Virus record (IMG/VR): IMGVR_UViG_3300008450_000279
Coordinates: 1-30,853 of that record
Direction: 5' to 3' (one strand)
DNA length: 30,853 nt
Source of the DNA: a virus
This document shows, piece after piece, positions 3,902-25,129 of the stretch. The number at the start of each line of letters is the position of its first letter. Position 1 is the stretch's first letter. Both the position numbers and the translations under genes were made by a program. Below the pieces are notes generated by a model that saw only the letters and a list, made by a program, of their open reading frames with translations, ran no database searches and was not told the DNA's origin.

Positions 3902-5979
3902 TACAAATACGAAATCTCACTGTTAAAAACTTCATGAGTGTAGGCGCAGCCACACAGGCCATTGACTTTGACCGCAATGATCTTACACTGGTGCTGGGTG
4001 AAAACTTAGACTTGGGTGGCGATGGATCGAGAAACGGCACAGGTAAGACCACAATCATCAATGCACTAAGTTATGCATTATATGGCCAAGCACTGTCAAA
4101 CATCCGCAAAGACAATCTAGTAAACAAAACCAATGCCAAACACATGTTGGTCAGCTTAGACTTTCATATCAACGGCACAGACTACAAAATTGAACGTGGG
4201 CGCAAACCCAACGTACTCAAGTTCTATGTAAACAACGAACACAAGGCCGCAGAGGATGAGGCACAGGGAGATTCAAGAGAGACACAAGACGCCATAGAGC
4301 GTATTATTGGCATGAGCCATGACATGTTCAAACATGTGCTGGCGCTGAACACCTACACAGAACCGTTTCTAAGTTTGAAGGCCAATGACCAGCGCACAAT
4401 CATTGAGCAGTTGTTAGGTATTACCTTGTTGAGTGAACGTGCGGACCGCATCAAAGAACTCAACCGACAAACCAAAGATGCTATCCAGTCTGAAGAGTTT
4501 AGAATTCGTGCTGTGCAAGAAGCCAACAAACGCATCGAAGAACAGATTGAGAGTCTAAAGCGTAGGCAAGTGCTTTGGCAAAAGAAGTACGACAGTGACG
4601 TGGCTTATCTAGTTGGTCAGTATGACGATCTAGCAAAGATTGATATTGAACTAGAACTGCTGGCTCACAAAGATCTAGCTGTGTGGTCTGCAAGAAAACA
4701 ACAACAAGATGCATATACTGCTCTTGTTGGTCGACAAACTGCTTGGAAACAAAAACAACACAAAGACATTGGTGAGCTAGAATCAACCTACAACAAACTC
4801 AGTCATATCGACATCTTGGCAGAACTTCAAGCACACACAGATTTGGCTGCTTACATTCAAAAAGCCAAAGACATTACAGACTTAGAAAAATACATTGCTC
4901 GATGTGTAGCAGACGAGGCCAAAGAACAAAAGGTCATCAACAAACTCAAAGCCGAAATTGAAGAATTAAAAAATCACAAGTGCTATGCTTGCGGGCAAGA
5001 CTTCCATGATACCAATCACGAAACAGTATTGGCAACAAAAGAAAAGGCCTTGCAAGAGGCAGCACTACAAGCATTGTCTATCAATACTCAGTGGATGGAA
5101 AATACAGATGCGTTAACCGCATTGGGCGAGTTGGGTGCCAAACCCACAACACACTACCAAACAGAAACAGAAGCTATTCGACATTCTAGTGAGTTGGAAA
5201 ACATTCAACACAAGATTGATGCCAAACGTGCAGAAACAGATCCCTATGCTGAACAGTTAGCAGAACACACACCTGTAGAAGTTGGCACACAACCTGTCAC
5301 ACATTATGATACCGAAACACAGGCAATCGATCATCGCAGTCGCATGAACACCCTGCTGACACAGATCAATGGCAAAGCACTAGAGACCGATCCGTATACA
5401 GAACAAATTACCGAAATGCAACAACAGGCCCTACAGGTTGTGAGTTACGATCACTTAAACGAACTTACTAGAGTGCAAGACCATCAGGACTTCTTGCTCA
5501 AACTTTTGACCTCAAAAGACTCGTTTGTGCGTAAGAAGATTATTGAACAGAACTTGAGCTATTTGAATCAACGTCTCACACACTACTTGGATAGAATTGG
5601 CTTACCACACACAGTGAAGTTCATGAACGACTTGACAGTGAGCATTGAAGAACTGGGTCGTGAACTGGATTTTGACAACTTGAGTCGTGGCGAACGCAAT
5701 CGATTGATCTTAAGCATGAGCTGGGCATTCCGTGATGTTTGGGAAAGTTTGTACTCGCCCATCAACTTGTTGTTTATTGACGAGATGATTGACAACGGGT
5801 TGGACACACAAGGTGTGGAAAATGCACTAGGCCTGTTGAAGAAGATGAGTCGCGAACGCCACAAGTCAATCTGGCTGGTTAGTCATAGAGATGAACTTAC
5901 TAGCAGAGTTGAAAACATTCTCAAAGTGATCAAAGAGAATGGCTTTACCAGCTACAACACAGATATAGAAGTGGCATGA
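3898..5979 (+). CDS. 46: Recombination nuclease subunit gp46 (SbcC/Rad50-like ATPase)
   Basis: The 693-residue SMC-type ATPase has an extended Walker A loop (GGDGSRNGTGKTT, K50), a coiled-coil middle with a zinc-hook CYAC (C362, C365), the ABC signature NLSRGERNR (S596-E599) and Walker B LLFIDE (D628, E629). It is longer than T4 gp46 (560 residues); the extra length lies in the coiled coil. The region before the hook has repeated 'LAxYxxLAxIDIxLELxAHxDLA'-like segments (about 235-320), and after it there are repeated 'PxxHYxTETxAIxH' segments, suggesting internal duplication of coiled-coil units. It works with gp47 just upstream (4-base overlap). The longer Walker A loop is known in cyanophage-type gp46. 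Confidence 0.95.
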   Translation: MIQIRNLTVKNFMSVGAATQAIDFDRNDLTLVLGENLDLGGDGSRNGTGKTTIINALSYALYGQALSNIRKDNLVNKTNAKHMLVSLDFHINGTDYKIERGRKPNVLKFYVNNEHKAAEDEAQGDSRETQDAIERIIGMSHDMFKHVLALNTYTEPFLSLKANDQRTIIEQLLGITLLSERADRIKELNRQTKDAIQSEEFRIRAVQEANKRIEEQIESLKRRQVLWQKKYDSDVAYLVGQYDDLAKIDIELELLAHKDLAVWSARKQQQDAYTALVGRQTAWKQKQHKDIGELESTYNKLSHIDILAELQAHTDLAAYIQKAKDITDLEKYIARCVADEAKEQKVINKLKAEIEELKNHKCYACGQDFHDTNHETVLATKEKALQEAALQALSINTQWMENTDALTALGELGAKPTTHYQTETEAIRHSSELENIQHKIDAKRAETDPYAEQLAEHTPVEVGTQPVTHYDTETQAIDHRSRMNTLLTQINGKALETDPYTEQITEMQQQALQVVSYDHLNELTRVQDHQDFLLKLLTSKDSFVRKKIIEQNLSYLNQRLTHYLDRIGLPHTVKFMNDLTVSIEELGRELDFDNLSRGERNRLILSMSWAFRDVWESLYSPINLLFIDEMIDNGLDTQGVENALGLLKKMSRERHKSIWLVSHRDELTSRVENILKVIKENGFTSYNTDIEVA

Positions 5980-7457
5980 CTGATGTTTTGATTTTAAGTA
6001 TACCACGTTTGAGTGCCACTCGGCCTCAAAGTGCCTGTGGCATACTCAAATCAATTTGCAATCGTGCGGGCGTTACTTCAAAAGTTTTTGATATTAATTT
6101 GGACTTTTATCAAAATTTTAAATCTTCTAATCCGTCAACTGCCAATGCCATTGATCAATATTGGATACAATGGAACAAAAATCTGTTGCCTGAGGAGAAA
6201 ACAACTTACTCTAGTTGGTTGCAAGCATGGGTTGAAAAATTAATGGCTTTTGATTGCAAGATCATTGCAGTAAGTGTATTCAGTTGGGAAAGTCAACGAT
6301 TTTGTCTTGACTTTTTTCCATTGTTGCGTAAAAATTTTACAGGCACAATCATTGTAGGCGGACAAGGTCTTATCAATGAACAAAACGGTAGCTTTAGTAC
6401 CAAGATGCATTTTGCACACAAGTTAAAAAATCAAGGACTAATTGATCATTGGATTGCTGGAGAAGCTGAAAACAGTTTTTACAATTTTTTAACTGGTAGC
6501 AATGTACCTGGATTAGACAGTGATGTGTTGGTCAATGATGTTGATCTTGATACTAACAACATCGCAGATTATAGTGACTTTGCAATAGAACAATATGTAA
6601 CTGCCTACCCCGGCGGGGTATTGCCAATTGAAAGCAGTCGTGGATGTGTTAGAAGCTGTGCGTTTTGTGACATCCCCACACATGCTGGAGGATATAGATA
6701 CAAAAACGGAAAGGTACTAGCTAATGAAATGATTGGCTATTACCAACAGTATGGTGTGCGTAACTTTTATTTTAACGATGCGTTGATGAACGGCAGCGTC
6801 AAAGATTTTAAACTATTTTTGAACTGCATCATTGAGTTTTATCAACAAAACAATTTACCTGACAGATTCTTTACATTCAGTGGTTATTGGATTGTGCGAA
6901 GTGAAACTCAATTCAAAGAGCACAATTTTGAACTGCTAAGTCGTGCCGGAGGAGAAATGTTTGAAACTGGAGTTGAGACTGGTAGCGAACGTTTGCGAAA
7001 CATCATGAACAAGGGATTTTCAAACGCAGATCTTGAGTTTAACATACAGCAGTTCAGCAAGTACAAAATGAAATTCTTCTTGTTGTTGCTGGTAGGGTTT
7101 CCAAATGAAACACAAACCGACTTTGAAGAGACCAAGAACTTGCTACGACGCTGGCAGAAATATGTTGCACTAGGAACTATTATTGGATGCAACTTAGGCA
7201 CAGGATTGACAGTAGAACAAGGAACACCTATGTTTGATAATCCTGCAAAATTTAACATTGTTCCAATCAAGGGCGACACCGCCAAAGGCATCAATTGGAT
7301 TTGTACCACAACACCTGAACTTGACTATGCAGAACGTGTGCGTCGACGCATTGAACTGCACAAGTTGGCCGAAGATCTGGGATATACTATCTGGAAAGGT
7401 GATGATCACTTGAGTATTATCAAAGATCGATATCTTACGGAGTTGGCCAATGTCTGA
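5976..7457 (+). CDS. Radical SAM enzyme with B12-binding-like N-terminus
   Basis: The 493-residue protein has the radical SAM cluster motif CxxxCxxC as GCVRSCAFC (C224, C228, C231), which binds a 4Fe-4S cluster and cleaves SAM to 5'-deoxyadenosyl radical. Residues 1-190 look like the Rossmann-type B12-binding domain of class B radical SAM enzymes (LILSIPRLSATRPQSACGIL, then IIVGGQGL), but I see no DxHxxG cobalamin ligand motif. After the cluster come GVRNFYFNDALM, GGEMFETGVETGSERL and FFLLLLVGFPNET, typical TIM-barrel strands of the Elp3/MiaB-like group. The substrate is unknown. The ATG overlaps the gp46 stop (ATGA), and the next gene overlaps this one by 8 bases, so the cassette is translationally coupled to the recombination genes. 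Confidence 0.85.
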   Translation: MTDVLILSIPRLSATRPQSACGILKSICNRAGVTSKVFDINLDFYQNFKSSNPSTANAIDQYWIQWNKNLLPEEKTTYSSWLQAWVEKLMAFDCKIIAVSVFSWESQRFCLDFFPLLRKNFTGTIIVGGQGLINEQNGSFSTKMHFAHKLKNQGLIDHWIAGEAENSFYNFLTGSNVPGLDSDVLVNDVDLDTNNIADYSDFAIEQYVTAYPGGVLPIESSRGCVRSCAFCDIPTHAGGYRYKNGKVLANEMIGYYQQYGVRNFYFNDALMNGSVKDFKLFLNCIIEFYQQNNLPDRFFTFSGYWIVRSETQFKEHNFELLSRAGGEMFETGVETGSERLRNIMNKGFSNADLEFNIQQFSKYKMKFFLLLLVGFPNETQTDFEETKNLLRRWQKYVALGTIIGCNLGTGLTVEQGTPMFDNPAKFNIVPIKGDTAKGINWICTTTPELDYAERVRRRIELHKLAEDLGYTIWKGDDHLSIIKDRYLTELANV

Positions 7458-7944
7458 ATTTTTGTTTGAGTTTGATTACGATGATTATTTTGGTATCCCT
7501 ACAGTCAAAATTTTTATTGATCAACAATGCTTGTATCAAGACACAGTGAAAAAACAAATTGTTGTGAACACAGAGTTAGTGCCAGGTACTCACACATTGA
7601 CTATAGAACACTTTGGTAAGCATGCCTGGAAACATCAGAATGCCGAACATGATCGTCATATTGAATTAAAATCTATTGTGGTCGACGGAGTAGATTTAGA
7701 TCATCATGAACATTGCATGCTAACGCATCAAGGACGTTGGTACCCAGATTACAGTTTGGAGTGCATTACGCCATGTCATTGGTTGGGCAACAACGGTACA
7801 TGGATTTTGAATTTTGATGCGCCAGTATTGAATTGGATTATTAAAACAATCAATCCTGCAGGCGTGAGTCCAGAACAAACACTGGATCGCAGTGGCAATG
7901 ACATACTCAAAGACACTTTGGACTTTTTTAAAATAAATGTTTGA
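7450..7944 (+). CDS. Unknown beta-rich protein between two radical SAM genes
   Basis: The 164-residue protein is not recognised with certainty. Its N-terminal 70 residues alternate acidic, aromatic and strand-forming residues (FEFDYDDYFGIPTVKIFI, ELVPGTHTLTIEHFGK), resembling small beta-sandwich carbohydrate-binding modules of the calcium-dependent xylan-binding type. A histidine-rich segment (KHAWKHQNAEHDRH, DHHEHCMLTHQG) follows. There is no signal peptide or membrane segment. It overlaps the radical SAM gene before it and the one after it by 8 bases each, so it is almost certainly part of their function, as partner, substrate carrier or substrate. This role is an inference from context. 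Confidence 0.8.
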   Translation: MSEFLFEFDYDDYFGIPTVKIFIDQQCLYQDTVKKQIVVNTELVPGTHTLTIEHFGKHAWKHQNAEHDRHIELKSIVVDGVDLDHHEHCMLTHQGRWYPDYSLECITPCHWLGNNGTWILNFDAPVLNWIIKTINPAGVSPEQTLDRSGNDILKDTLDFFKINV

Positions 7945-9025
7945 TTATAAAACTATTGACGAGTATCAGATAGAGATCACCAGCTATTGTAATGCTGCCT
8001 GTCCCCAGTGTCCTCGCAACCTCAACGGACATGGTATCAATCCTTACATGCCGTTAACACACTTATCACGTGAAGTAATTGACCGTGCATTCTCTGAAGA
8101 ATTGTGCAGTAGATTACGTCAAGTATTCTTTTGCGGCAGTTATGGCGATCCCATCATGCATCCAGACTTTTTAGACATACTACGTGACTTTAGAAAGAAA
8201 GCTCCTACACTTTGGTTATACTTCCATACCAATGGCGGAGTACACGATCCTGATTACTGGGCAGAAGTTTCTAGTATCATGAACGGCTACGGACAAATTG
8301 ACTTTGGTATTGACGGACTAGAAGATACTTTACATTTGTATAGAAAAAATGTAAAATACAACAAAGTTATTGAAAACGCCGCTGCGTTTATAAATGCTGG
8401 AGGACGAGCACAATGGAACTATATTGTATTCAAACACAACGAGCACCAAGTTGAGCAGGCCAAACAACTGGCCAGCAGTATGAAATTTTTTAACATACTA
8501 ATTCGAAACACTGGTAGATTTTTGAATCACACCACCCTGGAAGAGATGCCTGTGTGGCCAGTGGCCAAAAGTGACTATGTACTTGAACCACCTAGTGATG
8601 CACAGTACAAGAATCGCAGTATGACATTTTTACCTGAGTTAAAAAAGCAACAGAACTACTTTGCTACTACTACTATCAAATGTGATGCCTTGCAAGGACG
8701 CAAAGTAGCTATCAACGCCGAAGGTGTTGTATTACCATGCAACTTTTTCAATCACAATTTGTATGATGCAAGATTTTATGATGGATCAATGCCAGGAGCA
8801 AATGCATTAAGTCAGCCCGGTGGTCGCAATCAAGTACGAGACTTTTTGTTGTGTTACGGATTAGATAATCTCAACATTCATAACAATAGCCTCGAAGGTG
8901 TTTTTGAAAATCCCATGTGGAGTGATTTAGTTGAATCGTTTACTCGTGATCGATTGTTTGAATGTGCTATGACATGCGGTGAAAAATTTACAAAAGTTTG
9001 GGATCAAGGAGGAAGCAAAAGATGA
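7937..9025 (+). CDS. Radical SAM enzyme with SPASM/twitch-like C-terminus
   Basis: The 362-residue protein begins with a classic cluster motif EITSYCNAACPQCPRN (C18, C22, C25). It continues with FFCGSYGDPIMHPDF (the GGEP-like strand) and LWLYFHTNGG. The C-terminal part has KCDALQGRKVAINAEGVVLP followed by CNFF and, near the end, ECAMTCGEKF: a cysteine pattern like SPASM or twitch domains that bind extra Fe-S clusters. Such enzymes modify peptides, sugars or tRNA-like substrates; here the substrate is unknown. It overlaps the gene before it by 8 bases and the SDR gene after it by 4. Similar genes are seen in aquatic phages. Confidence 0.87.
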   Translation: MFDYKTIDEYQIEITSYCNAACPQCPRNLNGHGINPYMPLTHLSREVIDRAFSEELCSRLRQVFFCGSYGDPIMHPDFLDILRDFRKKAPTLWLYFHTNGGVHDPDYWAEVSSIMNGYGQIDFGIDGLEDTLHLYRKNVKYNKVIENAAAFINAGGRAQWNYIVFKHNEHQVEQAKQLASSMKFFNILIRNTGRFLNHTTLEEMPVWPVAKSDYVLEPPSDAQYKNRSMTFLPELKKQQNYFATTTIKCDALQGRKVAINAEGVVLPCNFFNHNLYDARFYDGSMPGANALSQPGGRNQVRDFLLCYGLDNLNIHNNSLEGVFENPMWSDLVESFTRDRLFECAMTCGEKFTKVWDQGGSKR

Positions 9026-9612
9026 AAATGTTAGTTACAGGCGGTAACCGAGGACTGGGGCAACACCTAGTGGATGTGTTTGGTGCTGACAGTGTCAGCA
9101 GATCCACAAACTTGGATATCACTGATGACCAAGCAGTCAAATTGATTGCTCAACAAAGTTTGAATTATGATGTGTTTGTAAACAATGCATTTGATGGGCC
9201 ACCACAAGAAGCCTGGGCCAACTTTGCACAAACAAACTTGTACATGGCAGTATACGACAAGTGGAAAAACGCTGGCAAAAGTGGGCACATCTTTAATATT
9301 GGATCAGTGGGCGAGCATCATATTGTTGCTGCTGAGCCTAGATTTGAAACGTACCGCGTGGCCAAGGCGGCACTGGCACATGCCAGCAGGCAGGGCACCC
9401 AGTCATTCAAACAAAATCTGGTGCAGTTCAGAACCACGCTAATCACACCTGATCGCTTGGACACAGAACTAAGTCGTGGACGGCCCACCTGGACAGGAAA
9501 CGGCATTAATTTAAAAGATATTAGCAATTTTATAACATACGCTATCTCTGTTGGTCCAAACACAGTGATAGAAGAGGCAACTTTTTACGTAAACTTTGAT
9601 CATAAATCATAA
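9022..9612 (+). CDS. Short-chain dehydrogenase/reductase (SDR)
   Basis: The 196-residue protein has the SDR nucleotide-binding loop LVTGGNRGLG (T6-G13), LDIT (D32), the NNA motif (N54-A56), IFNIGSVG (S95) and the catalytic YRVAK (Y111, K115). It is shorter than the usual 240-260 residues, mostly lacking the substrate loop and last helices, as in atypical SDRs. An upstream in-frame ATG at 8998 exists, but 9022 is the better start: AAGGAGG lies at 9006-9012, the SDR fold begins right at MKMLVTGG, and ATGA overlaps the preceding stop. NAD(P)-linked oxidation or reduction of a product of the two radical SAM enzymes is a reasonable inference. Confidence 0.88.
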   Translation: MKMLVTGGNRGLGQHLVDVFGADSVSRSTNLDITDDQAVKLIAQQSLNYDVFVNNAFDGPPQEAWANFAQTNLYMAVYDKWKNAGKSGHIFNIGSVGEHHIVAAEPRFETYRVAKAALAHASRQGTQSFKQNLVQFRTTLITPDRLDTELSRGRPTWTGNGINLKDISNFITYAISVGPNTVIEEATFYVNFDHKS

Positions 9613-10337: not shown

Positions 10338-10796
10338 GGTTGGCGGGCCAGTTTGTAATACCGCTGTGGAAAAACCGGGGAATAACCGGACACGTGACAT
10401 ATTGAGGCACTCCCGTCAGTAAATCTGACTATCCTGAAAAATTGGAAGTGAGTCTGAGGCTAGAACAATAGGGCCGACGCATTGATATAGTATGAATGTT
10501 AGCATACGAGAACACCGGCTATAAAAATCTAAACACTAGGAACGAGGTTTAGAGCACGTAGAAATATGTGTATCGTGGTAGGAAGGAAAAGCACAGAGTC
10601 CTTTAGCATACGGTGTATAATAAATTACCTACTTCCAATGTCTTGGCTAGTGATACTCACATGAAGACAACAGCGGAACCGCGCAAAACGGTTCCGTCTG
10701 ACTAGATCTATCTACATGAATACTTAATCGCTTCGCTCTTGAAAATCAATCAATTAACGAGCGCAAGCGAAGTTAATAGACTTGCGTAGCAAGTCT
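10330..10796 (+). ncRNA. Candidate large structured non-coding RNA
   Basis: This 450-base stretch between convergent genes has no ORF but many strong helices. A 9-bp long-range pairing joins 10441-10449 (ATTGGAAGT) to 10631-10639 (ACTTCCAAT). Local hairpins are GCGG/CCGC (10343-10346/10361-10364), CCGG/CCGG (10375/10386), GTCAG/CTGAC (10415-10429), GTATG/CATAC (10490-10507), TCTAAAC/GTTTAGA (10528-10553), CGGAACCG/CGGTTCCG (10674-10696), a 10-bp stem with one bulged C (10729-10738/10759-10769) and AGACTTGC/GCAAGTCT (10778-10796). Competing pairings exist: CACTCC 10408-10413 can pair with the same GGAAGTG, and the repeat TTAGCATACG (10499, 10603) offers two partners for GTATG. A promoter lies upstream. 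It does not look like tRNA, tmRNA, RNase P RNA or 6S RNA. The family is unknown to me. Confidence 0.6.
10778..10796 (+). terminator. Hairpin ending the RNA region, between convergent genes
   Basis: A perfect 8-bp stem AGACTTGC/GCAAGTCT with a 3-base loop (GTA) ends at the stop codon of the convergent nucleosidase gene. Only a poor T-rich tract (TTATAATAAGTTT) follows on the plus strand. On the minus strand the hairpin follows the gene stop directly, with a TATT tail. It may stop both transcripts weakly, or be an end-protecting structure. Confidence 0.5.
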
Positions 10797-11338
10797 TATA
10801 ATAAGTTTAACTCTTTGAGTTTGTTGACATAATGTGATTGTCCTTGAGCAACTTGTTGTTGCCAATCATTGTGTGCGTGTTGGTTGGCTTGATCGCTGAT
10901 GTATTTCCAACACACAAACTCAACTCCATATTTCTCGCATGCTTTGGCAATGGCATAGGCTTCCATGTCTACAACATCTGCTGGTATTTGTAGTATGGGA
11001 TTCATCACAAAGTTGTCACCAGTACTGCAAGTTAAGCCAGTAGAGTTGCCAATGTGTGTGCTAGTTTCAAAAGGTGTTTGTCCTGGGGTACACCCTAATG
11101 CTTCACAAGTCATGTCTCTTTGCACAAACTGAGTGCATTGATAGAATCCTGGTGCGACTGTTATACCACCAGCTGTGCCAAAGTTAATGATACGCCGGGG
11201 ACGATACTTTGTGATAACTTCACTGGCAGTGATGGCAGCGTTAACCTTGCCCACACCAGTGTAAAACAAGTTCATCATGTGGCTGAGATCTGGTGCTTCT
11301 GCTCGAATAGCTATTAAAATAATATCATTCATCAACAT
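10796..11338 (-). CDS. MTA/SAH (5'-methylthioadenosine) nucleosidase-like protein
   Basis: The 180-residue PNP/UDP-phosphorylase-family protein resembles MTA/SAH nucleosidase (Pfs/MtnN): IILIAIRAEAP (E14 fits the catalytic acid position), FYTGVGKVNAAI, IINFGTAGG, VVDMEAYAIAKACEKYGV (M125, E126) and YISDQA (D149). The family cleaves MTA, S-adenosylhomocysteine and 5'-deoxyadenosine to adenine plus a ribosyl sugar. It is about 50 residues shorter than E. coli MtnN; the shortening is in the loop before and after GTAGG. The first ATG (11338) is chosen because GGAAGGA sits 8 bases upstream; a second in-frame ATG is 6 bases later. It overlaps the apt gene by 14 bases, so adenine release and reuse are coupled. 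Confidence 0.78.
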   Translation of the reverse strand: MLMNDIILIAIRAEAPDLSHMMNLFYTGVGKVNAAITASEVITKYRPRRIINFGTAGGITVAPGFYQCTQFVQRDMTCEALGCTPGQTPFETSTHIGNSTGLTCSTGDNFVMNPILQIPADVVDMEAYAIAKACEKYGVEFVCWKYISDQANQHAHNDWQQQVAQGQSHYVNKLKELNLL

Positions 11339-11849
11339 TGACCATTCCTTCCCACATAATATTGTGCCGAGTCAATGCTGTCCCTCCAGGCAAGTTCTGC
11401 AAGTTTATAATCACAGCAGCAGAAATTTTAGTGTCAATCCAATGACTGCGAATTAGATTTGCTGTGGCCATTATAGTGCCTCCAGTGGCTAGCAAGTCAT
11501 CCACAATCAATGGATGTGCGCCTACTGGAGCGTGTGGGTGCATTTCAATGGTATCAGTGCTGTATTCAGTTTGATAGCTGTGTTGTATTGTGGGGCCGGG
11601 CAATTTGCCACGTTTACGTACTAGGATTAGTGGAAGTCCTAATTGTCTTGCTACAGGTGCCGCAAACACAAAGCCACGGCTTTCCACAGCCACAAGACTG
11701 GAAGCATTATACCAATGTGCTTGATGCTTTAACCATCCACAGCAGTAATCAAATGCTTCTGGATTGGCAAGAATGCCAGTTACGTCAAAAAAGTTAATAC
11801 CTGGTTTGGGCCAATCAGGTACTACAGGTACATGATCGAGGATGTTCAT
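11325..11849 (-). CDS. apt: Adenine phosphoribosyltransferase
   Basis: The 174-residue protein is close to full family length (E. coli Apt is 183). It shows NFFDVTGILANPEAF near the start, the flexible-loop region VRKRGKLPGPTIQHSYQTEY, DTIEMH, and the PRPP-binding motif PLIVDDLLATGGT (113-125). It catalyses adenine + PRPP to AMP + pyrophosphate in the cytoplasm. Apt is uncommon in phages. Its gene overlaps those on both sides (4 bases with the preceding DUF6614-like gene and 14 with the nucleosidase gene), so it should act with the nucleosidase. Catalytic residues appear intact. Confidence 0.92.
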   Translation of the reverse strand: MNILDHVPVVPDWPKPGINFFDVTGILANPEAFDYCCGWLKHQAHWYNASSLVAVESRGFVFAAPVARQLGLPLILVRKRGKLPGPTIQHSYQTEYSTDTIEMHPHAPVGAHPLIVDDLLATGGTIMATANLIRSHWIDTKISAAVIINLQNLPGGTALTRHNIMWEGMVNVDE

Positions 11850-12183: not shown

Positions 12184-12618
12184 TTACTCCAGTGGTCCTA
12201 GTATTTCAAATCCGTCCATGTTGGATTTGTATAGGTGTGCTTGCTCAAGATACAAGTATTGGAATCCTCGTTCCTTGTAGATAGCACACTCTGTTTTCAT
12301 TGTTTCAATTCCCAACCGTAGTTTAGGATTGTTGTAGTTCCATGCAAATTGATCGCACAGTGCGTTATGATCATCATAGCGTCGGATCAAACTGAATGCA
12401 ACCAATCGATTTTGATCGTAATATCCTATTACATCTGTCATTGGGTCTGTGTAACGACAGTCAAATATAGGCATCACACTTGCAAAATGTTTGTATTTGC
12501 AATAGTCTCTGTAGATAGAGTTTAGCTGTTTGATGTTGGGCTCACGCAAATACTCCCACTTTACATTTGGTGTGTAGTTGGTCTGGCTGAGATCGATTCT
12601 GGCAAACTGATAGCTCAT
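12184..12618 (-). CDS. Acetyltransferase-fold protein resembling the ATE C-terminal domain
   Basis: The 144-residue protein resembles the GNAT-like C-terminal half of arginyl/leucyl-tRNA-protein transferases: LNSIYRDYCKYKHF, VIGYYDQNRLVAFSLIRRYDD, an aromatic strand (DQFAWNYNN), then LGIETMKTECAIYKERGFQYLYLEQ and YKSNMDGFEIL, matching the family's 'SLGxxxxLxEI..A...GxxYxYLGY...KMxYK' order. In ATE this domain moves an amino acid from tRNA to a protein N-terminus. Here the N-terminal domain of ATE is missing, so the real donor and acceptor are unknown. Similar one-domain proteins occur in cyanophages. It overlaps the gene before it by 4 bases. Confidence 0.65.
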   Translation of the reverse strand: MSYQFARIDLSQTNYTPNVKWEYLREPNIKQLNSIYRDYCKYKHFASVMPIFDCRYTDPMTDVIGYYDQNRLVAFSLIRRYDDHNALCDQFAWNYNNPKLRLGIETMKTECAIYKERGFQYLYLEQAHLYKSNMDGFEILGPLE

Positions 12619-13115
12619 CTTGGATCCTTACGATGTTCAAACAGTCCCGCAAGATACTCTTCTGGCCAGTTGTGATAGAATCCCTTCTCAGCCATAAGTT
12701 TGGCTTTGTTGTTTAAGTCGCTGAGACTTTGCACTAGAGCTAGAGCATACTTGCCTTGATTCATACACACACCGTTCACCATCTCAACGTCTGCGGGATG
12801 ATCCTCTAGTGCAAGTAGATCGTTGCGTAACAAATGTTCCTTGTTGGCATTTTTCAAACTGTCACTGAACAATTCATATGGCCATTCCACAGGATCGTAA
12901 GCATAGATAATAACTTCCTTATCGCCCATGCCCCATCGTGCTCGATTTTTAAGATCAAAGTAAGGATCTACGCCAACATGTACATCGTAGCTTTTTTTCA
13001 TGCGTGCTGAGCGTGCGTATGGACAAGGAGCCCAGCCTCCAAGAGCAGGATGTGGAACTTCTACAAAGTTCACAATCCAGTTTTCAATATCTTGTTTAAC
13101 TGTATCTAAGTCCAT
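12615..13115 (-). CDS. Unknown protein with PCPYA motif
   Basis: The 166-residue protein begins with a helical stretch followed by NWIVNFVEVPHPALGGWAPCPYARSARM. The 'wxxNfxxxxxPxLgxxxPCPyArxAr' pattern recalls DUF1415-type proteins and small conserved proteins found in aquatic phages and bacteria. The centre (KEVIIYAYDPVEW) looks like a strand. No catalytic residues are identified. The ATG (13115) overlaps the TAA of the -1 frame extension of the gp26-like gene (TAATG), so it is coupled to that reading frame and not to the 281-codon frame. This coupling independently supports translation of the extension. Confidence 0.7.
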   Translation of the reverse strand: MDLDTVKQDIENWIVNFVEVPHPALGGWAPCPYARSARMKKSYDVHVGVDPYFDLKNRARWGMGDKEVIIYAYDPVEWPYELFSDSLKNANKEHLLRNDLLALEDHPADVEMVNGVCMNQGKYALALVQSLSDLNNKAKLMAEKGFYHNWPEEYLAGLFEHRKDPR

Positions 13116-13345
13116 TAGAAATACGGCAGTTTAGTTTTGTTGGTGGTTTCCATGTTTTCTTCGGCTATCTTGCTGATCATTTTTCTTTCAGTGAAACTTA
13201 GTGCCAACACCTGATCGTAGGTGAGTCCGCCGCGCATTAACCAAGCCAATCTTAAACTGTTTGATCTAATTGCGTTGGCCTCCTGATCAAGGCTGTCAAT
13301 GTACTCGCCAATTTCCTCTACTGGGAGGATCAGGAGGCGGCTTCG
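13115..13345 (-). CDS. -1 frame extension of the gp26-like gene (76 codons)
   Basis: This frame encodes 76 residues after the slippery site: LPVEEIGEYIDSLDQEAN, LRLAWLMRGGLTYDQV, LSFTERKMISKIAEENM and ending KLPYF. The frame is open from a TGA inside the gp26-like gene, but it has no ATG, GTG or TTG before the conserved-looking part begins; the first TTG is 30 codons in. It is exactly in the -1 frame relative to the gp26-like gene at AAATTTTTTC. The end overlaps the next gene's ATG. The helical FTERKMI segment resembles the C-terminal parts of T4 baseplate hub/assembly proteins (gp26/gp51 group). The most likely product is a 353-residue fusion with the upstream 277 residues. An ATT start after AGAGGA is the alternative. 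Confidence 0.65.
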   Translation of the reverse strand, partial: RSRLLILPVEEIGEYIDSLDQEANAIRSNSLRLAWLMRGGLTYDQVLALSFTERKMISKIAEENMETTNKTKLPYF

Positions 13346-14175
13346 AAAAAATTTGTAAGATCCAGATTTAGTGCTTGATCATGTTCGTGATTGCATTCAC
13401 TGCAAGTGAGATGCACAGGTTTCAGTTCTGTACGATTGCGCAAGTCAACTGCGTGATCTCTAACAGCAACAAAAATTTGACGATCGCAGTTTTGCAAAAA
13501 TTCATCAATGTGCTCAGTCTCTGACACAACAGCATTTGGTGTACGAATTGCTGAAATTGAGTACTTGAGAGCTCGCATGGTCAGCTGAGTTAGTATTTTC
13601 ATCACTTCTGCTAGTTTTTGTAACTTTTCGTCTTCGGTGAGCTCAGTATCCATGCTGATGTTGCGCATCATGCGTTGATTTTCAAACTGCTCAAGATTGA
13701 TTTCATTTTGCTTTTCGTAACTCATGGGATGAAAATAAATTTCCAAATCACCATAAGTTACTGTGGCAGAAAAGTCCGGCATGGTCAACTGATCCAGTGC
13801 ATTGCGCAAGTCTAACGCAAAACTCTCAATGTGTTTGCAAGCAGGACATGTAGTTTCAATTTCAAGCTCATGCCCGTAGCTGGCAATACGAATAGCAACT
13901 AGGATAGAATTCAAATCTGCCACAGGAGCATGCCAGGCATTCTTAATTGACGGCACACAACTGTGTATTACATTGACCACAGCTTGCCCGCTAAACAGCG
14001 CATCTGGCGTGCGATAGGTGATTTCGTCAATGGCTGTCATGGGATAAACAGGCAGCTCACCGTTTTGAGGCACGTCTAAGCTGCCTTCGGGCCAGTATTT
14101 GCCCTGGCTGGGCAACCGCAAGTAAATTGCTGGTTGTCTAAAAAATTGTCTAAGTGGATTGTGATTTTGGTTCAT
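13330..14175 (-). CDS. 26: Baseplate hub/assembly protein, gp26-like
   Basis: The 281-residue protein has the N-terminal signature IYLRLPSQGKYWPEGSLD, LPVYPMTAIDEITYRTPDA and VVNVIHSCVPSIKNAW that marks the gp26-like baseplate hub family in T4-like aquatic phages. It carries two zinc-knuckle pairs, ACKHIESFAL (with CPAC) and CSECNHEH, suggesting a bound zinc. In T4, gp26 is needed for the central hub of the baseplate. It lies head-to-head with the tape measure gene. Just before its stop there is a slippery AAATTTTTTC run leading into a 76-codon extension in the -1 frame. The start has only a weak GGG ribosome site 6-8 bases upstream. Confidence 0.8.
   Translation of the reverse strand: MNQNHNPLRQFFRQPAIYLRLPSQGKYWPEGSLDVPQNGELPVYPMTAIDEITYRTPDALFSGQAVVNVIHSCVPSIKNAWHAPVADLNSILVAIRIASYGHELEIETTCPACKHIESFALDLRNALDQLTMPDFSATVTYGDLEIYFHPMSYEKQNEINLEQFENQRMMRNISMDTELTEDEKLQKLAEVMKILTQLTMRALKYSISAIRTPNAVVSETEHIDEFLQNCDRQIFVAVRDHAVDLRNRTELKPVHLTCSECNHEHDQALNLDLTNFFEAAS
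13345..13354 (-). promoter_or_regulatory. Candidate -1 programmed frameshift site
   Basis: Read on the minus strand, the run AAATTTTTTC contains two in-frame X-XXY-YYZ heptamers: A-AAT-TTT and T-TTT-TTC. It lies 4 codons before the stop of the gp26-like frame. Slippage by -1 enters the 76-codon extension, which lacks its own start. Downstream, TCCTC/GAGGA with a 6-base loop (about 13311-13329) could form a small stimulatory hairpin. Confidence 0.6.
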
Positions 14176-14216: not shown

Positions 14217-17200
14217 ATGGCGGACGTAAATCAAGCATCACAAGAAATGGCTGAAGTCATAGCACGAGTTTCTGACGACCTTAGAAATTTTGGGCGAGTT
14301 ACTGAAGATACCCAGGCAGCACTGGCAGCAGGAAGTTTCCGTCGAGCAAAAGAACTTGACAAGGCCAGTGCGTTAACAGCAGGTGCGCTGGGAAACCTAG
14401 CAGGTGCAGGTCTTGCAGCCGGCAAAGCCATGTACGATGGCCAAAAAGGCGCCGCAGCATTTAACAGTTCACTTGACAGCATGAGCAAAGCAGTTACCGC
14501 AGCCGGTGCTGCGTTGACTTTCTTGGTGCCTGGCGGGTTCTTGATCAAAGCTCTAATTGGTCTGGGCACAGCCGCAGTTGGCGCTAGTATTAAGATGACT
14601 CAGGCGGCCAACGACATGGCCGACAACTTGTTTGCTGCCAATACCAAAATGGCCAAAGCTGGCCTGGCTGGTTCAGATGGCATGATGGGCATCTTCCGCG
14701 ACGCCAAGAAGCTTGGCTTGAGCATGAAAGAGCTGGGTGTATACACCAATGCAGTAGCAGCCAACAGCGCAGAATTGGCCTTGTTCAAAGGCACAGCATT
14801 TGAAGGACGTCAGGCATTTGCCAACATTGGTGCGGCCATGAAGCCTTTCCGGGTCAGCTTAGAGGCAGCTGGTATCAGTCTGGAAGATCAGATTGAAGGA
14901 ACAGCTGGCTATTTGAGACTGCAAACTTTGATTGGTCAGAGTCAAAACAAAACCAACCAAGAACTGGCTACTGGTGCTAGAAAATATCTTGTTGAAATGG
15001 ACGGCCTCAGCAAGCTCACAGGCATGCAACGTCAAGAAATTGAAAAGCAAATGGAATCTGCTCTCAGCGAACAGAGATTCCGTGCCAAGCTGGATGCCAT
15101 GCGAGCGACCAAGGATCCTCAACAAATGGCTGCTGCTGATCAACTGATGAGAGCTAATCTTATGTTGAGCAAGCAGGCTCCAGAGTTAGGACAAGCATTT
15201 AGAGACATTCAATCTGGAGCTCTTACCAGCGATGCTGCTGTCAAGGGCGTGATCAGCACTCAAGGTCAGTTGATGCAATCAAGTGAAGCATTGCAGTCAG
15301 GTCAAATTGATGCCAATCAAGCTGTCAAACAAATTGGTACCTCAATTGGCCAATTCAATAAGGACTTGAACTTTACGGCTCAGCTGGGCCTGTTGAATGA
15401 TTTTGCAATTGATTATGCACAGGGACAAAAACTGGCTATTTTTGCCCAGCAAGACATCAGTAAGATAGCTGCTGAAATTGTCGTTGAACAAAACAAACAG
15501 ATGAGTGGCCTGGGTGATGCCAACACTCGGGCCATGGCTGAACTGCGTGAAATGCAGCGCAATGCCAATGAAAAATTTGAGACCACAGTGTCGCAATCAA
15601 TCAGCACTGCCATTGCCATGAGCAAATCTTTGGTCGGAGTTACTGAACCTATTGCCACTGCATTTAAAGAACTGCAACCAGTGATGGACAAGTTTATGAA
15701 ACAAATGGTCAAACTCACAGACTGGATTGCCGAAAAACTAGGATTCATTGTTGGTAAAACTGTTGATGTGGTAGAAGCCACACAAAAAGACGGCATGGGC
15801 GGATTTTACAGATCTGGCGGCAGTGAAATGGTTGGAACTGGTGTTGGTGCATTAGCTGGTGCGGCGGGTGGTAAAATAGCTGGTACTTATGCAGGTGGAA
15901 TAGTTGGCTCTCTTTTTGGACCTGCGGGCACTGTGGCTGGAGCCGCTATAGGTGGAAAGATTGGCCCATATATTGCCACTGCCCTTGGTAGTGTTCTTGG
16001 CAAATATTTAGGCATGGGCGCTGATGCATTAGGTACCGCATTAACTCCTCCTGGGCGTGCCGCTGGCGGACCTGTCAGCAGACGAAATCCCTACATTGTG
16101 GGCGAACGTGGTCCAGAGCTCATGGTGCCTGAGCAATCAGGAAAAATTATAAACAATGACAAACTAAGCAAGATGTTTGAGTCAATGGCTTCTTCTGTAT
16201 CTTCAGGACAAGTCAGTGTTGATATGATATCTCAAGTGATGGGCAGTTCTGTAACTGTGGTTACTAACACCAATGACGAACTGACTAACAATTTGAGAAC
16301 CACACAAAACGTTGGTAGCACATATCAAGCAATACTGAGATCTGTTGACGAGCTAAACGATAAAAACAAAAAAACAACAGAATCAGTAATTGTAGCTCAA
16401 CGTGATACTTTGACAGACATACAACGCATTGAACGTTACACTGATCAAGACACCAAACGCACAAAAGAGTTTGTGGATTTTCACAAAAAATATCTTGACA
16501 GTGTCACCCAGATATTGGGTGAAAACTTAGAGCTACTGCAAGAACAATCTGAACAAAGTGGTTCTGCGGGTTCAGGCGGTGCGCCAGGCATGGGTGGAGG
16601 CACTGGCCTAAAAATTCCAGCAGCACCACCAGCTGGGGGCATGGGCGGAGGTAGCGGTGTTAGCCCAGGTGGCGGCCAAGGCATGAAAACTGCCAATGAA
16701 AACAATTTGTTGTCCATGGGCCTCAAATTTGATCCCAATCGTGATGTACAAGCTGAAGGCGCGGCAATCAGCCCTAAGCTGATTGAGCTGGCTAAAAATG
16801 TTCAAAGTCTAGTGCCTGGATTTTCAGCATTTACAGGATTTAACGATCAATTCCACAATGAAAAAAGTCCAAATAGCTTGCATACCAAAGGCCAGGCCAT
16901 GGACTTTGTGCTGAACAAAAAGCCCACACGAGAAGAAGGTGCAAGCATTGTTAGTTGGCTCAAACAGTCAGGAGCCAGTCTTGCTATAGATGAGTACCAC
17001 AACGCCACTAAAAATGCCACAGGTGGCCACTTCCATGCACAGATCCCGGCATTTGGTGATGGCGGCATGGTGGACAAAGCCACACTGGCGTTGATTGGTG
17101 AAAAAGGTCCAGAAGCTGTGATTCCCATGGATGGCAAAGAAATTCCACTGAATATATCCAAGCCAATTCCGATCAAGCTGGATTTCAAAGATGTAATGGC

Positions 17201-17693
17201 CGAAGGCGGCATTGGCCCATCAGTCATGGGCTACAATCAATATACGGGTTACAATACAGGAGCAGTAAGTACTGATCTTGCCGCAGTTAAAGAAATTGCA
17301 ACAGCCATGGGGGCTTTTGATAAAGCATCACAAACCATCACTGATCCAGCAACCTGGAAAGAAATTATAAATTCAGGCATTGCAACAAATTTTGATACTA
17401 ATATTATGAAAATAGGCACTCAAATGTTTGACGGCGCAGGCCCCCTATTAGGTCAACGATTGAATGATATTGTGGCCGAAAACGGTGTGAATCAGAAAGA
17501 AGCATTTGATTTAATGTTTGCAGAGTTCAAAGAAGCTATGACAGTATTGGGAACAGAAATGGCAAATAAAATAGCCAAAGAAAACGCTTCCCCAGAAACA
17601 GATGCGCTGATTGCCGGCATTGATGCACTAATTGCCAAGCAGAGTGAAGCCAACGACATCAGCAAGAAGATACTCCAGGTGAGTGCAAACTAA
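14217..17693 (+). CDS. Tail tape measure protein with M15-type peptidase domain
   Basis: The 1158-residue protein has helical, Ala/Gln-rich segments, two hydrophobic segments (about 92-125 and 538-606, the latter a glycine-zipper like VGALAGAAGGKIAG) and two copies of the tape measure motif GERGPELMVP (629) and GEKGPEAVIP (961). Between them, residues about 845-945 form a D,D/L,D-peptidase-like domain: SLHTKGQAMDF (H889, D896) and GGHFHAQ (H938, H940) give the SxHxxGxAxD...HxH zinc site of the M15/VanY group. Tape measures set tail length and pass into the cell envelope; an embedded peptidase would cut peptidoglycan during DNA entry. T4 itself uses gp29 without such a domain. Confidence 0.85.
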   Translation: MADVNQASQEMAEVIARVSDDLRNFGRVTEDTQAALAAGSFRRAKELDKASALTAGALGNLAGAGLAAGKAMYDGQKGAAAFNSSLDSMSKAVTAAGAALTFLVPGGFLIKALIGLGTAAVGASIKMTQAANDMADNLFAANTKMAKAGLAGSDGMMGIFRDAKKLGLSMKELGVYTNAVAANSAELALFKGTAFEGRQAFANIGAAMKPFRVSLEAAGISLEDQIEGTAGYLRLQTLIGQSQNKTNQELATGARKYLVEMDGLSKLTGMQRQEIEKQMESALSEQRFRAKLDAMRATKDPQQMAAADQLMRANLMLSKQAPELGQAFRDIQSGALTSDAAVKGVISTQGQLMQSSEALQSGQIDANQAVKQIGTSIGQFNKDLNFTAQLGLLNDFAIDYAQGQKLAIFAQQDISKIAAEIVVEQNKQMSGLGDANTRAMAELREMQRNANEKFETTVSQSISTAIAMSKSLVGVTEPIATAFKELQPVMDKFMKQMVKLTDWIAEKLGFIVGKTVDVVEATQKDGMGGFYRSGGSEMVGTGVGALAGAAGGKIAGTYAGGIVGSLFGPAGTVAGAAIGGKIGPYIATALGSVLGKYLGMGADALGTALTPPGRAAGGPVSRRNPYIVGERGPELMVPEQSGKIINNDKLSKMFESMASSVSSGQVSVDMISQVMGSSVTVVTNTNDELTNNLRTTQNVGSTYQAILRSVDELNDKNKKTTESVIVAQRDTLTDIQRIERYTDQDTKRTKEFVDFHKKYLDSVTQILGENLELLQEQSEQSGSAGSGGAPGMGGGTGLKIPAAPPAGGMGGGSGVSPGGGQGMKTANENNLLSMGLKFDPNRDVQAEGAAISPKLIELAKNVQSLVPGFSAFTGFNDQFHNEKSPNSLHTKGQAMDFVLNKKPTREEGASIVSWLKQSGASLAIDEYHNATKNATGGHFHAQIPAFGDGGMVDKATLALIGEKGPEAVIPMDGKEIPLNISKPIPIKLDFKDVMAEGGIGPSVMGYNQYTGYNTGAVSTDLAAVKEIATAMGAFDKASQTITDPATWKEIINSGIATNFDTNIMKIGTQMFDGAGPLLGQRLNDIVAENGVNQKEAFDLMFAEFKEAMTVLGTEMANKIAKENASPETDALIAGIDALIAKQSEANDISKKILQVSAN

Positions 17694-23714: not shown

Positions 23715-23981
23715 ATGGCTAATCGAATTCCGCTGGTTGTCAACTCAGCGAGCAGTCAAATTGAAGAAATAGCAGTTGGTGACAATCTTAATTTAAGTAA
23801 TAACGACATTATAAATGTAGGCAATGTCAGTGCGGTTGGCAAAACTACTTCCAGTACTATGCAGTTATTAGGATTGGTAGCTGATCCTGCAGGTGTAGCA
23901 GGCTTGATTTACTACAACATTAACACAGGTAAATTTCGTGGATATAATGGCGTAGTTGGCGCCTGGCAAGATCTAAATTAA
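23715..23981 (+). CDS. Short fibre-like protein sharing the N-terminus of the large fibre gene
   Basis: The 88-residue protein starts MANRIPLVVNSASSQIEEIA and continues GDNLNLSNNDIINVGNVSAVG, nearly the same as the first 40 residues of the large fibre gene at 28977. The end (LIYYNINTGKFRGYNGVVGAWQDLN) is a C-terminal phage fibre motif in which a short beta segment with WxxL closes the protein. It thus looks like a minimal fibre with head and tip but no shaft, either a real short adhesin or a reduced copy. Its stop overlaps the convergent glycosyltransferase gene by 4 bases. Confidence 0.75.
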   Translation: MANRIPLVVNSASSQIEEIAVGDNLNLSNNDIINVGNVSAVGKTTSSTMQLLGLVADPAGVAGLIYYNINTGKFRGYNGVVGAWQDLN

Positions 23982-25129
23982 ACTTTCATCCACCCTAGAT
24001 ATTGGCTGACTTTTTTGGTAACTGCTGTCCAGTCATCAAAGTTTTCTTGTCTAAAAAGTCTAGCAGTTGAATACCAAGGACTAGAATCTTGATTCAACAA
24101 CCAACGCCAGTCTGTGCTGAATTTTTGTAGCATTATCCATGTGGGCCGACCTAATGCGCCACTCAAGTGTGACACAGCAGTGTCTACGCCAATAACAACG
24201 TCCATGGCCATAATTAATGCCGCAGTGTCTACAAAACTTTTAACGCTGCCAGGATAGGCCTGCACTCCTGCTTCAAGCAAGGCTGCTTCTTCTTCTTCAG
24301 GATCGGCGTCAACTTGCAAATTGATCCATTCGTATTGAGGATTAGATTTGATCATGTCCAGCATTACAGGGAACGGCACACTCTTGTGTTGATTAAGCCA
24401 AGAATCTCTGCGCCCACTCCAACAAAAACCCACACGCATGCGGGTTTTAGGACCCAGTATCTGCAACCACTCTTGCTGACGGCCTTGATCTACGTTGAGA
24501 TAGTTCACTGGCCTGGGCAAATTTTCCAACGTTACTCCAAGTATGCCAGGGATGCTCATGATAGGAATCCAATAATCAAACTCACCCATGTCGTCAGTGT
24601 ATGTTCCCAACTGCTGAATGACGTCGCTAGATTGCAACAAAGGAATCAATCCGTCGGTAACCTGAAGCTTGATTTTTGCTCCAGCCACATGCAAGTTGTA
24701 CAAGAATCTGCAAAACTGAATGTTGTCTCCGTGGCCTTGTTCGCCTACCACAAGAATAGTTTTGTCTTTGAGATCTTCGCCACGCCAGCGAGGCTGTTGG
24801 TGTTTGGGTTCAGTGCCAGCAAGATGTTCGTATTGCCATCTGGCTTCATAAGCTGGCCATCCATTGGTGTAGTCGCCCATCAACAACAGTGCCACTGCCA
24901 AATTGAATCTAGCAGTTACGTTATTTGGATCCAAGAGAACAGCATGTTGCAAGAACGGTATGGCTCGTTGAGGATGTCCAATTTCTCGCATGACATTGCC
25001 GTAGTTGTTGAATGCCGCTGCTGAATCCATGTCTTTGGCAAATGCCAATGCATAACATTGCAGGGCTTCACCGTATTGTCGGTCAGCTCGATGTTGGTTG
25101 CCTTGTGAAATTAAAAAATCAGTTTCCAT
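23978..25129 (-). CDS. TPR-repeat glycosyltransferase
   Basis: The 383-residue protein has about two to three TPR units (residues 1-95: GEALQCYALAFAKDMDSAAA, RAIPFLQHAVLLDPNNVTAR), the linker GWPAYEARW and a glycosyltransferase-like domain: ILVVGEQGHGDNIQF, RMRVGFCWSG, then VVIGVDTAVSHLSGALGRPT, as in heptosyltransferase (GT9-like) and OGT-like TPR enzymes. TPR-glycosyltransferases of this type are common in aquatic phages and bacteria. It is the only minus-strand gene in the fibre region, so it may glycosylate fibres or change host surface sugars; the target is unknown. A late motif reads directly onto its ATG. Confidence 0.82.
   Translation of the reverse strand: METDFLISQGNQHRADRQYGEALQCYALAFAKDMDSAAAFNNYGNVMREIGHPQRAIPFLQHAVLLDPNNVTARFNLAVALLLMGDYTNGWPAYEARWQYEHLAGTEPKHQQPRWRGEDLKDKTILVVGEQGHGDNIQFCRFLYNLHVAGAKIKLQVTDGLIPLLQSSDVIQQLGTYTDDMGEFDYWIPIMSIPGILGVTLENLPRPVNYLNVDQGRQQEWLQILGPKTRMRVGFCWSGRRDSWLNQHKSVPFPVMLDMIKSNPQYEWINLQVDADPEEEEAALLEAGVQAYPGSVKSFVDTAALIMAMDVVIGVDTAVSHLSGALGRPTWIMLQKFSTDWRWLLNQDSSPWYSTARLFRQENFDDWTAVTKKVSQYLGWMKV

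Follow-up and report, generated by a model that had tools for sequence, protein, structure and literature searches.

The gp26-like gene on the minus strand at positions 13330..14175 of the window, that is, of the whole stretch of 30,853 nucleotides of the IMG/VR virus record IMGVR_UViG_3300008450_000279 analysed here, very probably encodes, in a large relative of T4, a tail assembly chaperone for which -1 programmed ribosomal frameshifting yields two forms, a short one of 281 aa and a long one of 353 aa. Working from the sequence, we could establish a slippery heptamer, a conserved -1 coding frame, a hairpin and homology to gp26 and gp51 of T4, and we infer the chaperone role in the window phage. 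According to the mechanism that we propose, most ribosomes would read through to the TGA stop codon and produce the short form, while a minority would slip back one base on U_UUU_UUC, possibly with the aid of an 11-bp hairpin whose start lies 6 nt downstream. The slipped ribosomes would produce the long form with a helical C-terminal domain, and the two forms together would make up a coat on the tape measure protein that keeps it ready until the tail is assembled. Because contigs carrying a 100% identical gp26-like protein are up to 364 kb in length, we have labelled the window jumbo-type.

The unshifted product, i.e. the short form (TAC-N), contains a PF12322 domain (E 9.6e-15; 55.3 bits against the Pfam cut-off of 24.5) and matches phrog_150 ('baseplate hub') in PHROGs with E 8.8e-18. 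Its AF2 model (pLDDT 93.4) resembles the models of other phage gp26-type proteins, the best BFVD match being a T4-like baseplate hub assembly protein (E 1.5e-25). A Foldseek search of the PDB with this model gave nothing at E 0.001 or below, and the search of the PDB by sequence gave three non-significant matches to designed proteins (E 0.11-0.69). The extension encoded by the -1 frame (TAC-C) is predicted to be helical (AF2 model, pLDDT 90.2) and, when searched alone, had no significant match in Pfam or PHROGs. The best BFVD match of its model was a phage protein without a name (E 7.6e-4), and the tape measure chaperone of Citrobacter phage Moogle ranked sixth with E 0.54, a mere hint. Erwinia phage Special G carries a 539-aa protein resembling the short form (BFVD, E 1.5e-8) and an 86-aa protein that very weakly resembles the extension (E 5.7), and the accession numbers of the two are close.

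The end of the gene reads ...ACA AAT TTT TTC GAA GCC GCC TCC TGA on the minus strand. The run AAATTTTTTC at 13354-13345 comprises two overlapping in-frame X_XXY_YYZ heptamers, A_AAT_TTT (13348-13354, minus strand) and T_TTT_TTC (13345..13351, minus strand), and four sense codons (GAA GCC GCC TCC) lie between the latter and the TGA at 13330..13332, so that the two heptamers four codons before the stop noted in the preliminary description are confirmed. Among 30 window genes picked from the ORF list, an X_XXY_YYZ heptamer within the final 16 codons is found in the gp26-like gene alone. The -1 frame (13115..13351, minus strand) starts with FFRSRLL and runs to LPYF and a TAA, its translation being FFRSRLLILPVEEIGEYIDSLDQEANAIRSNSLRLAWLMRGGLTYDQVLALSFTERKMISKIAEENMETTNKTKLPYF, with 76 codons after FF, and homologous -1 frames are present in relatives. 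The TAA (13117-13115) overlaps the ATG of the next gene (12615..13115, minus strand), to which no function is assigned and which lies outside the fusion; the predicted size of the fusion is 277 + 76 = 353 aa. The length of the frame, its overlap with the next ATG and the size of the product had all been given in this way by the preliminary description, and its count of 29 initial codons without a start was conservative: the first ATG/GTG/TTG, a TTG, is at codon 35 from FF, and the first ATG is at codon 39.

An important part of the evidence comes from relatives of different depth. Among 19 loci of close IMG/VR relatives, three run off the contig before the gene end, and the 16 that hold it all have TTTTTTC in frame and a homologous -1 extension (16/16). 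Distant metagenomic relatives, consisting of the best 80 of at least 585 confirmed and of 16/16 confirmed from a second scan, keep xxT_TTT_TTC and a -1 extension of 72-80 codons in 96/96 cases, with one extension (L049) shortened to 68 codons by a contig end. Since both distant scans used patterns located elsewhere in the gene, the slip site was not selected for. Cyanophage-type relatives, the best 80 of 591 confirmed, have the slip site and a -1 extension in 80/80 cases, three of the extensions being shortened at contig ends. For jumbo isolates chosen from 64 matching records and by further searches, the heptamer and a homologous -1 extension were found in 12/12 (Phosso, Atu_ph07, Vibrio 2.275, SCTP-2, RaK2, Munch, BF, XacN1, XaC1, Hallingskeid, GAP32 and slurp01), XacN1 having T_TTT_TTT. 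The same arrangement occurs also in P-SSM2, S-RIM8, Rhizobium phage LG08, ValKK3 and Desulfovibrio phage 7757, and the slip site of RL38J1 is T_TTT_TTG. The upstream heptamer A_AAT_TTT is lost in many relatives, which have AGT or TCT before TTT, and L017 has CAATTTTTTC; because xxT_TTT_TTC is kept where A_AAT_TTT is lost, we regard U_UUU_UUC as the site. Thus, the slip site is present in every single-gene relative examined with the exception of one distant group, the Ackermannviridae type.

For the analysis of constraint we have assembled 198 loci, namely the 96 distant and 80 cyanophage-type relatives and 22 chosen others, leaving aside further near-copies from close relatives and the ten phages of the T4 type, the Ackermannviridae type and P1; a k-mer rule reduced this set to 153 non-redundant loci. 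The slip site is present in 198/198 loci when C, T or G is allowed as its last base. All 153 non-redundant loci have T as the wobble base ahead of TTT, a base expected in about 54% from the way these genes encode the same amino acids (log10 P = -47.6, a value that ignores shared descent). The slip codons are TTT TTC in 151, TTT TTT in one and TTT TTG in one of these loci, and the base after the heptamer is G in 139/153. The -1 frame directly after the heptamer mostly keeps FFRx[RKQ]LL or something close to it in jumbo types, and the unshifted tails range from 1 to 11 codons and vary in sequence. For pairs of 78-codon extensions with a DNA identity of at least 72%, the dN/dS-like ratio, calculated from single-change codons only and from pairs that are not independent, is 0.11 in the -1 frame (22 pairs), against 1.7 (22 pairs) and 2.7 (20 pairs) in the other frames. 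The -1 frame therefore evolves as a protein under purifying selection, and the protein-like character ascribed to it in advance is borne out. The preliminary description had named the conservation of the heptamer and of a constrained -1 frame as what would support frameshifting, and the relatives bear this out strongly.

Elements that may stimulate the slippage were also examined. The window has a perfect 11-bp stem, with the 5' arm GCCTCCTGATC at 13328..13338 (minus strand), 6 nt 3' of the heptamer, and the 3' arm GATCAGGAGGC at 13278..13288 (minus strand), separated by a loop of 39 nt (MFE -26.2 kcal/mol, z -2.67); the unshifted TGA lies within the 5' arm. This hairpin is a probable stimulator. 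Stems starting 3-10 nt downstream of the site beat 95% of shuffles in 59/87 jumbo-type loci (in-gene control 12/87) and in 47/65 cyanophage-type loci (control 2/65), where the label 'cyanophage-type' includes, in these stimulator counts, the rhizobial, ValKK3 and desulfovibrio loci. Upstream of the site, at a distance of 8-18 nt, 60/66 cyanophage-type loci have an SD-like motif (control 3/66), which is not above the control in jumbo types (5/87 against 4/87). The folding z-score of the 60 nt downstream is strong in cyanophage types (-2.54, control -0.35; 34 of 66 loci folded) and weak in jumbo types (mean -0.85, control -0.19; 45 of 87 folded), which we read as a sign of stems spanning more than 60 nt. 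Covariation was examined in three sets of rows picked by their geometry: 60 rows of the cyanophage type, 23 of the 29 jumbo rows that have one codon after the site, and 34 of the 44 jumbo rows that have four, which is the subgroup of the window. Rows left out, RaK2-type among them, were judged too divergent, and plain counts were made on all 29 and 44. The two-sided changes and the score both lay above all 500 shuffles for the cyanophage-type rows and for the one-codon jumbo subgroup; in the latter, shifting the stem by one column yields 14 two-sided cells where the stem itself has 13, and its covariation support is accordingly moderate. For the 34 sequences of the window's subgroup, neither measure exceeded the shuffles (64/500 and 257/500 as high), and the paired fraction is 66.9% against 31-45% for slid stems, which is the one kind of support for the stem in this subgroup.

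Among other explanations, the extension could be a separate small gene, translated from a non-standard start or by stop-restart coupling, with an incidental T run. Several relatives do have ATGA or TAATG at the stop, and some are annotated accordingly (Phosso, slurp01); the cyanophage gp51 is annotated as a gene of its own; and Vibrio 207E48 and D531 have TAATG without the heptamer. Early starts, within the first 11 codons of the extension, are frequent in one group in particular, an ATG being found in 60/66 cyanophage-type and 13/87 jumbo-type loci and any ATG/GTG/TTG in 63/66 and 35/87, respectively. However, the window has no ATG/GTG/TTG before codon 35, the -1 residues ahead of any possible start are conserved, and the wobble-T heptamer is present in 198/198 loci, even where an early start is absent. 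The preliminary description had considered the ATT after AGAGGA as a possible real start, and this did not hold up: AGAGGA sits 1 nt from the ATT, too near for a well-spaced SD; half of the window's subgroup (17/34 sequences) has ATC or GTN as this codon; and 0/34, the window included, show an SD-like motif ahead of the codon at a distance of 4-14 nt. Both an own start and the ATT start were rejected for the window, with no start before codon 35 and no SD-like motif, and we consider a separate gene very improbable. The preliminary description had further held that relatives with the extension as a separate gene and without the slippery run would speak against frameshifting. Such relatives do exist, namely three Ackermannviridae-type phages and six T4-type phages with a full-length gene 51; the nearer relatives are not of this kind.

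Slippage of RNA polymerase, instead of the ribosome, on the six T is slightly less probable still. The T run is present and is needed by both mechanisms, but six T is short for bacterial transcriptional slippage, and the hairpins a few nt downstream and the upstream SD-like motif of cyanophage types fit the ribosome. That a sequencing or assembly error splits a single long gene deserves a thought, homopolymers being error-prone as is generally known, but the same run and frame recur in many contigs, in different samples and in isolate genomes, and these relatives refute it; its probability is negligible. A chance overlap of the T run with an open frame is just as negligible: in simulations about 3% of random frames remain open over 75 codons, so that the open frame by itself is weak evidence and conservation in relatives decides, and chance is refuted by that conservation and by the purifying selection in the -1 frame. 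Ribosomal frameshifting stays by far the preferred reading.

We next compare the gene with its counterparts in T4-type phages. Both gp26 and gp51 of T4, the one T4-type pair included in the PF12322 scan, match this family over its whole length, as the window protein does, and gp51 has an extra C-terminus that matches the extension; in the alignment gp51 continues where gp26 and the frameshifting proteins stop. The comparison of the gp51 C-terminus with cyanophage-type extensions gave E 3.5e-11, and that of jumbo-type extensions with six gp51 C-termini gave E 1.5e-5 at a probability of 79% (hhalign, single target; 0/100 column shuffles as high in both cases). The jumbo-type and cyanophage-type extensions match each other weakly (E 0.0012, probability 19%), yet better than 100 shuffles. 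A different alignment setting gave E values of 1.1e-9 (cyanophage against gp51), 5e-4 at a probability of 13% (jumbo against gp51) and 0.001 (jumbo against cyanophage), and because of the second of these values the homology between the jumbo-type extension and the gp51 C-terminus appears to be of moderate strength. T4 differs from the window in having two separate genes, a short 26 and a long 51, as do Krischvirus FL15, RB43, Acinetobacter phage Berthold, Proteus phage phiP4-3 and Aeromonas phage 25, and in none of these six T4-type phages was a canonical slip site with an extension found at the end of gene 26. ValKK3, which also belongs to Straboviridae, retains the slip site.

The tree, unrooted and built from 46 proteins, places the gp26s and gp51s of the six T4-type phages in one clade (99/97). 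Within it the gp51s form a clade (100/99), and the long-branched gp26 of RB43 falls beside them (93/85). The expression state requires two changes on the tree, and because the T4-type proteins form a single clade, one duplication in the T4 group giving genes 26 and 51 would fit. The heptamer is absent in three Ackermannviridae-type phages, phiA8-29, Vibrio 207E48 and D531 (the D531 record is without a family), which keep the extension and have CTT TTC or CTT TTT in place of the heptamer; TAATG at the junction of Vibrio 207E48 and D531 suggests a switch to stop-restart. Putting these results together, we lean, with modest confidence, to the following joint reading. Jumbo, cyano-, rhizobial, vibrio and desulfovibrio phages would all have retained U_UUU_UUC at the end of their T4-type chaperone gene, its helpers having been swapped, with many jumbo phages using a long-range hairpin (loop of about 40-50 nt, with the unshifted stop often in the 5' arm) and cyanophages an SD-like motif and a short hairpin; the T4 group would have left frameshifting once by duplication, and the Ackermannviridae type would have lost the heptamer separately.

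The presumed client of the chaperone is the divergent neighbour (14217..17693, plus strand; 1158 aa), a probable tape measure protein 41 nt away from the chaperone gene. Its match to PHROG tape-measure families is weak and in short stretches, with a best E of 2.4e-8, its top PHROG match is a family without a function (1.6e-10), and no Pfam family was matched; the divergent tape measure gene noted in the preliminary description is therefore divergent indeed and probable in its identity. A divergent ORF of at least 150 codons lies beside the gene in 80/82 jumbo-type loci having enough upstream sequence, and 44 (blastp) or 41 (phmmer) of the 80 are similar to the tape measure candidate of the window. 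In the record of Acinetobacter phage Berthold, gp26 and gp51 are both annotated as 'tape measure protein assembly chaperone'. Other genes of the window also attracted our attention. Overlapping genes of the phosphorylase superfamily (PF01048) and of a phosphoribosyltransferase (PF00156, adenine-type by its look) at 10796-11849 (minus strand) are a possible phage purine salvage module; two radical-SAM genes and a short-chain dehydrogenase gene form one run at 5976-9612 (plus strand), adjoining gp46/gp47-like nuclease genes; and TPR repeats are fused to a glycosyltransferase-9-like region at 23978-25129 (minus strand), downstream of the capsid gene.

In lambda G/GT and P2 E/E', a -1 slip near the 3' end of the gene gives a longer minor product linked to the tape measure protein, and the chaperone gene of lambda lies directly upstream of the tape measure gene on the same strand. 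The window gene matched no such family in the Pfam scan and differs in gene order; since it is divergent from the tape measure gene, we consider that it would work like lambda G/GT and have not filed it as lambda-type. Frameshifting is reportedly conserved in several T4-like groups according to Vladimirov, Gautam and Davidson (2022, Virology 566:9-15), who are said to name genes 26 and 51. In the papers citing this study, some T4-like phages are described as using, in place of frameshifting, two genes, one short and the other a long fusion (PRFect paper, PMC10885494, citing Vladimirov et al., 2022), and poly-T slip signals are mentioned in T4-like chaperone genes (Adele paper, PMC12846349, citing Vladimirov et al., 2022). 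As far as these citing passages go, the principle of frameshifted T4-like tail assembly chaperones is already known in print, and the remark in the preliminary description that no such site had been described for gp26-type genes is out of date. The chaperones concerned likewise have, by the same passages, short and long forms, the latter with a C-terminal domain, and they belong to the same family PF12322 as the window protein if the gene numbers 26 and 51 are right; the window differs in that it represents an uncultivated phage of the jumbo type, in which the chaperone and tape measure genes are divergently arranged. The Vandenendeviridae locus of phage Adele also has, in the part of its description concerned (PMC12846349), a conserved -1 frame and a poly-T motif and is routinely annotated as two genes, but it differs in its GTTTTT motif, in having the tape measure gene downstream and in belonging to another virus family. 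PmgB of P1, which is proposed as a tape measure chaperone in a passage of PMC9024508 and whose family is weakly matched by the Atu_ph07 counterpart of the window protein, was rejected as a frameshifting counterpart, having no slip site and no -1 extension. Among the matches listed in open-access PMC there was no paper on the slip site in jumbo phages, and the word 'frameshift' is absent from the text of the papers on Atu_ph07 (PMC6102473) and RaK2 (PMC3622015). What is added here is the jumbo-phage lineage, the stem-loops, the wobble constraint, a tree fitting one T4-group duplication, and the Ackermannviridae-type exceptions.

These results bear on annotation as well. Database names are often 'baseplate hub' for gp26 and 'baseplate hub assembly catalyst' for gp51, and in the frameshifting phages examined the latter is listed as an independent small protein whose start was guessed, or is missing; our evidence indicates that the listed small protein is the C-terminal part of a longer chaperone. 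The -1 frame continues into a short ORF annotated gp51 in P-SSM2, S-RIM8 and ValKK3, and these short genes have the look of frameshift extensions that were misannotated and given guessed starts. The gp51 of cyanophages is given as about 20% of the usual length in a passage of Sullivan et al. (2010, PMC3037559). The frameshifting form is found in RaK2-, Munch-, Atu_ph07- and SCTP-2-like jumbo phages and in an environmental group of at least 585 confirmed relatives, of which the best 80 were read. Frameshifting, duplication and heptamer loss form a natural series, which offers a way to ask why phages keep two forms of the chaperone.
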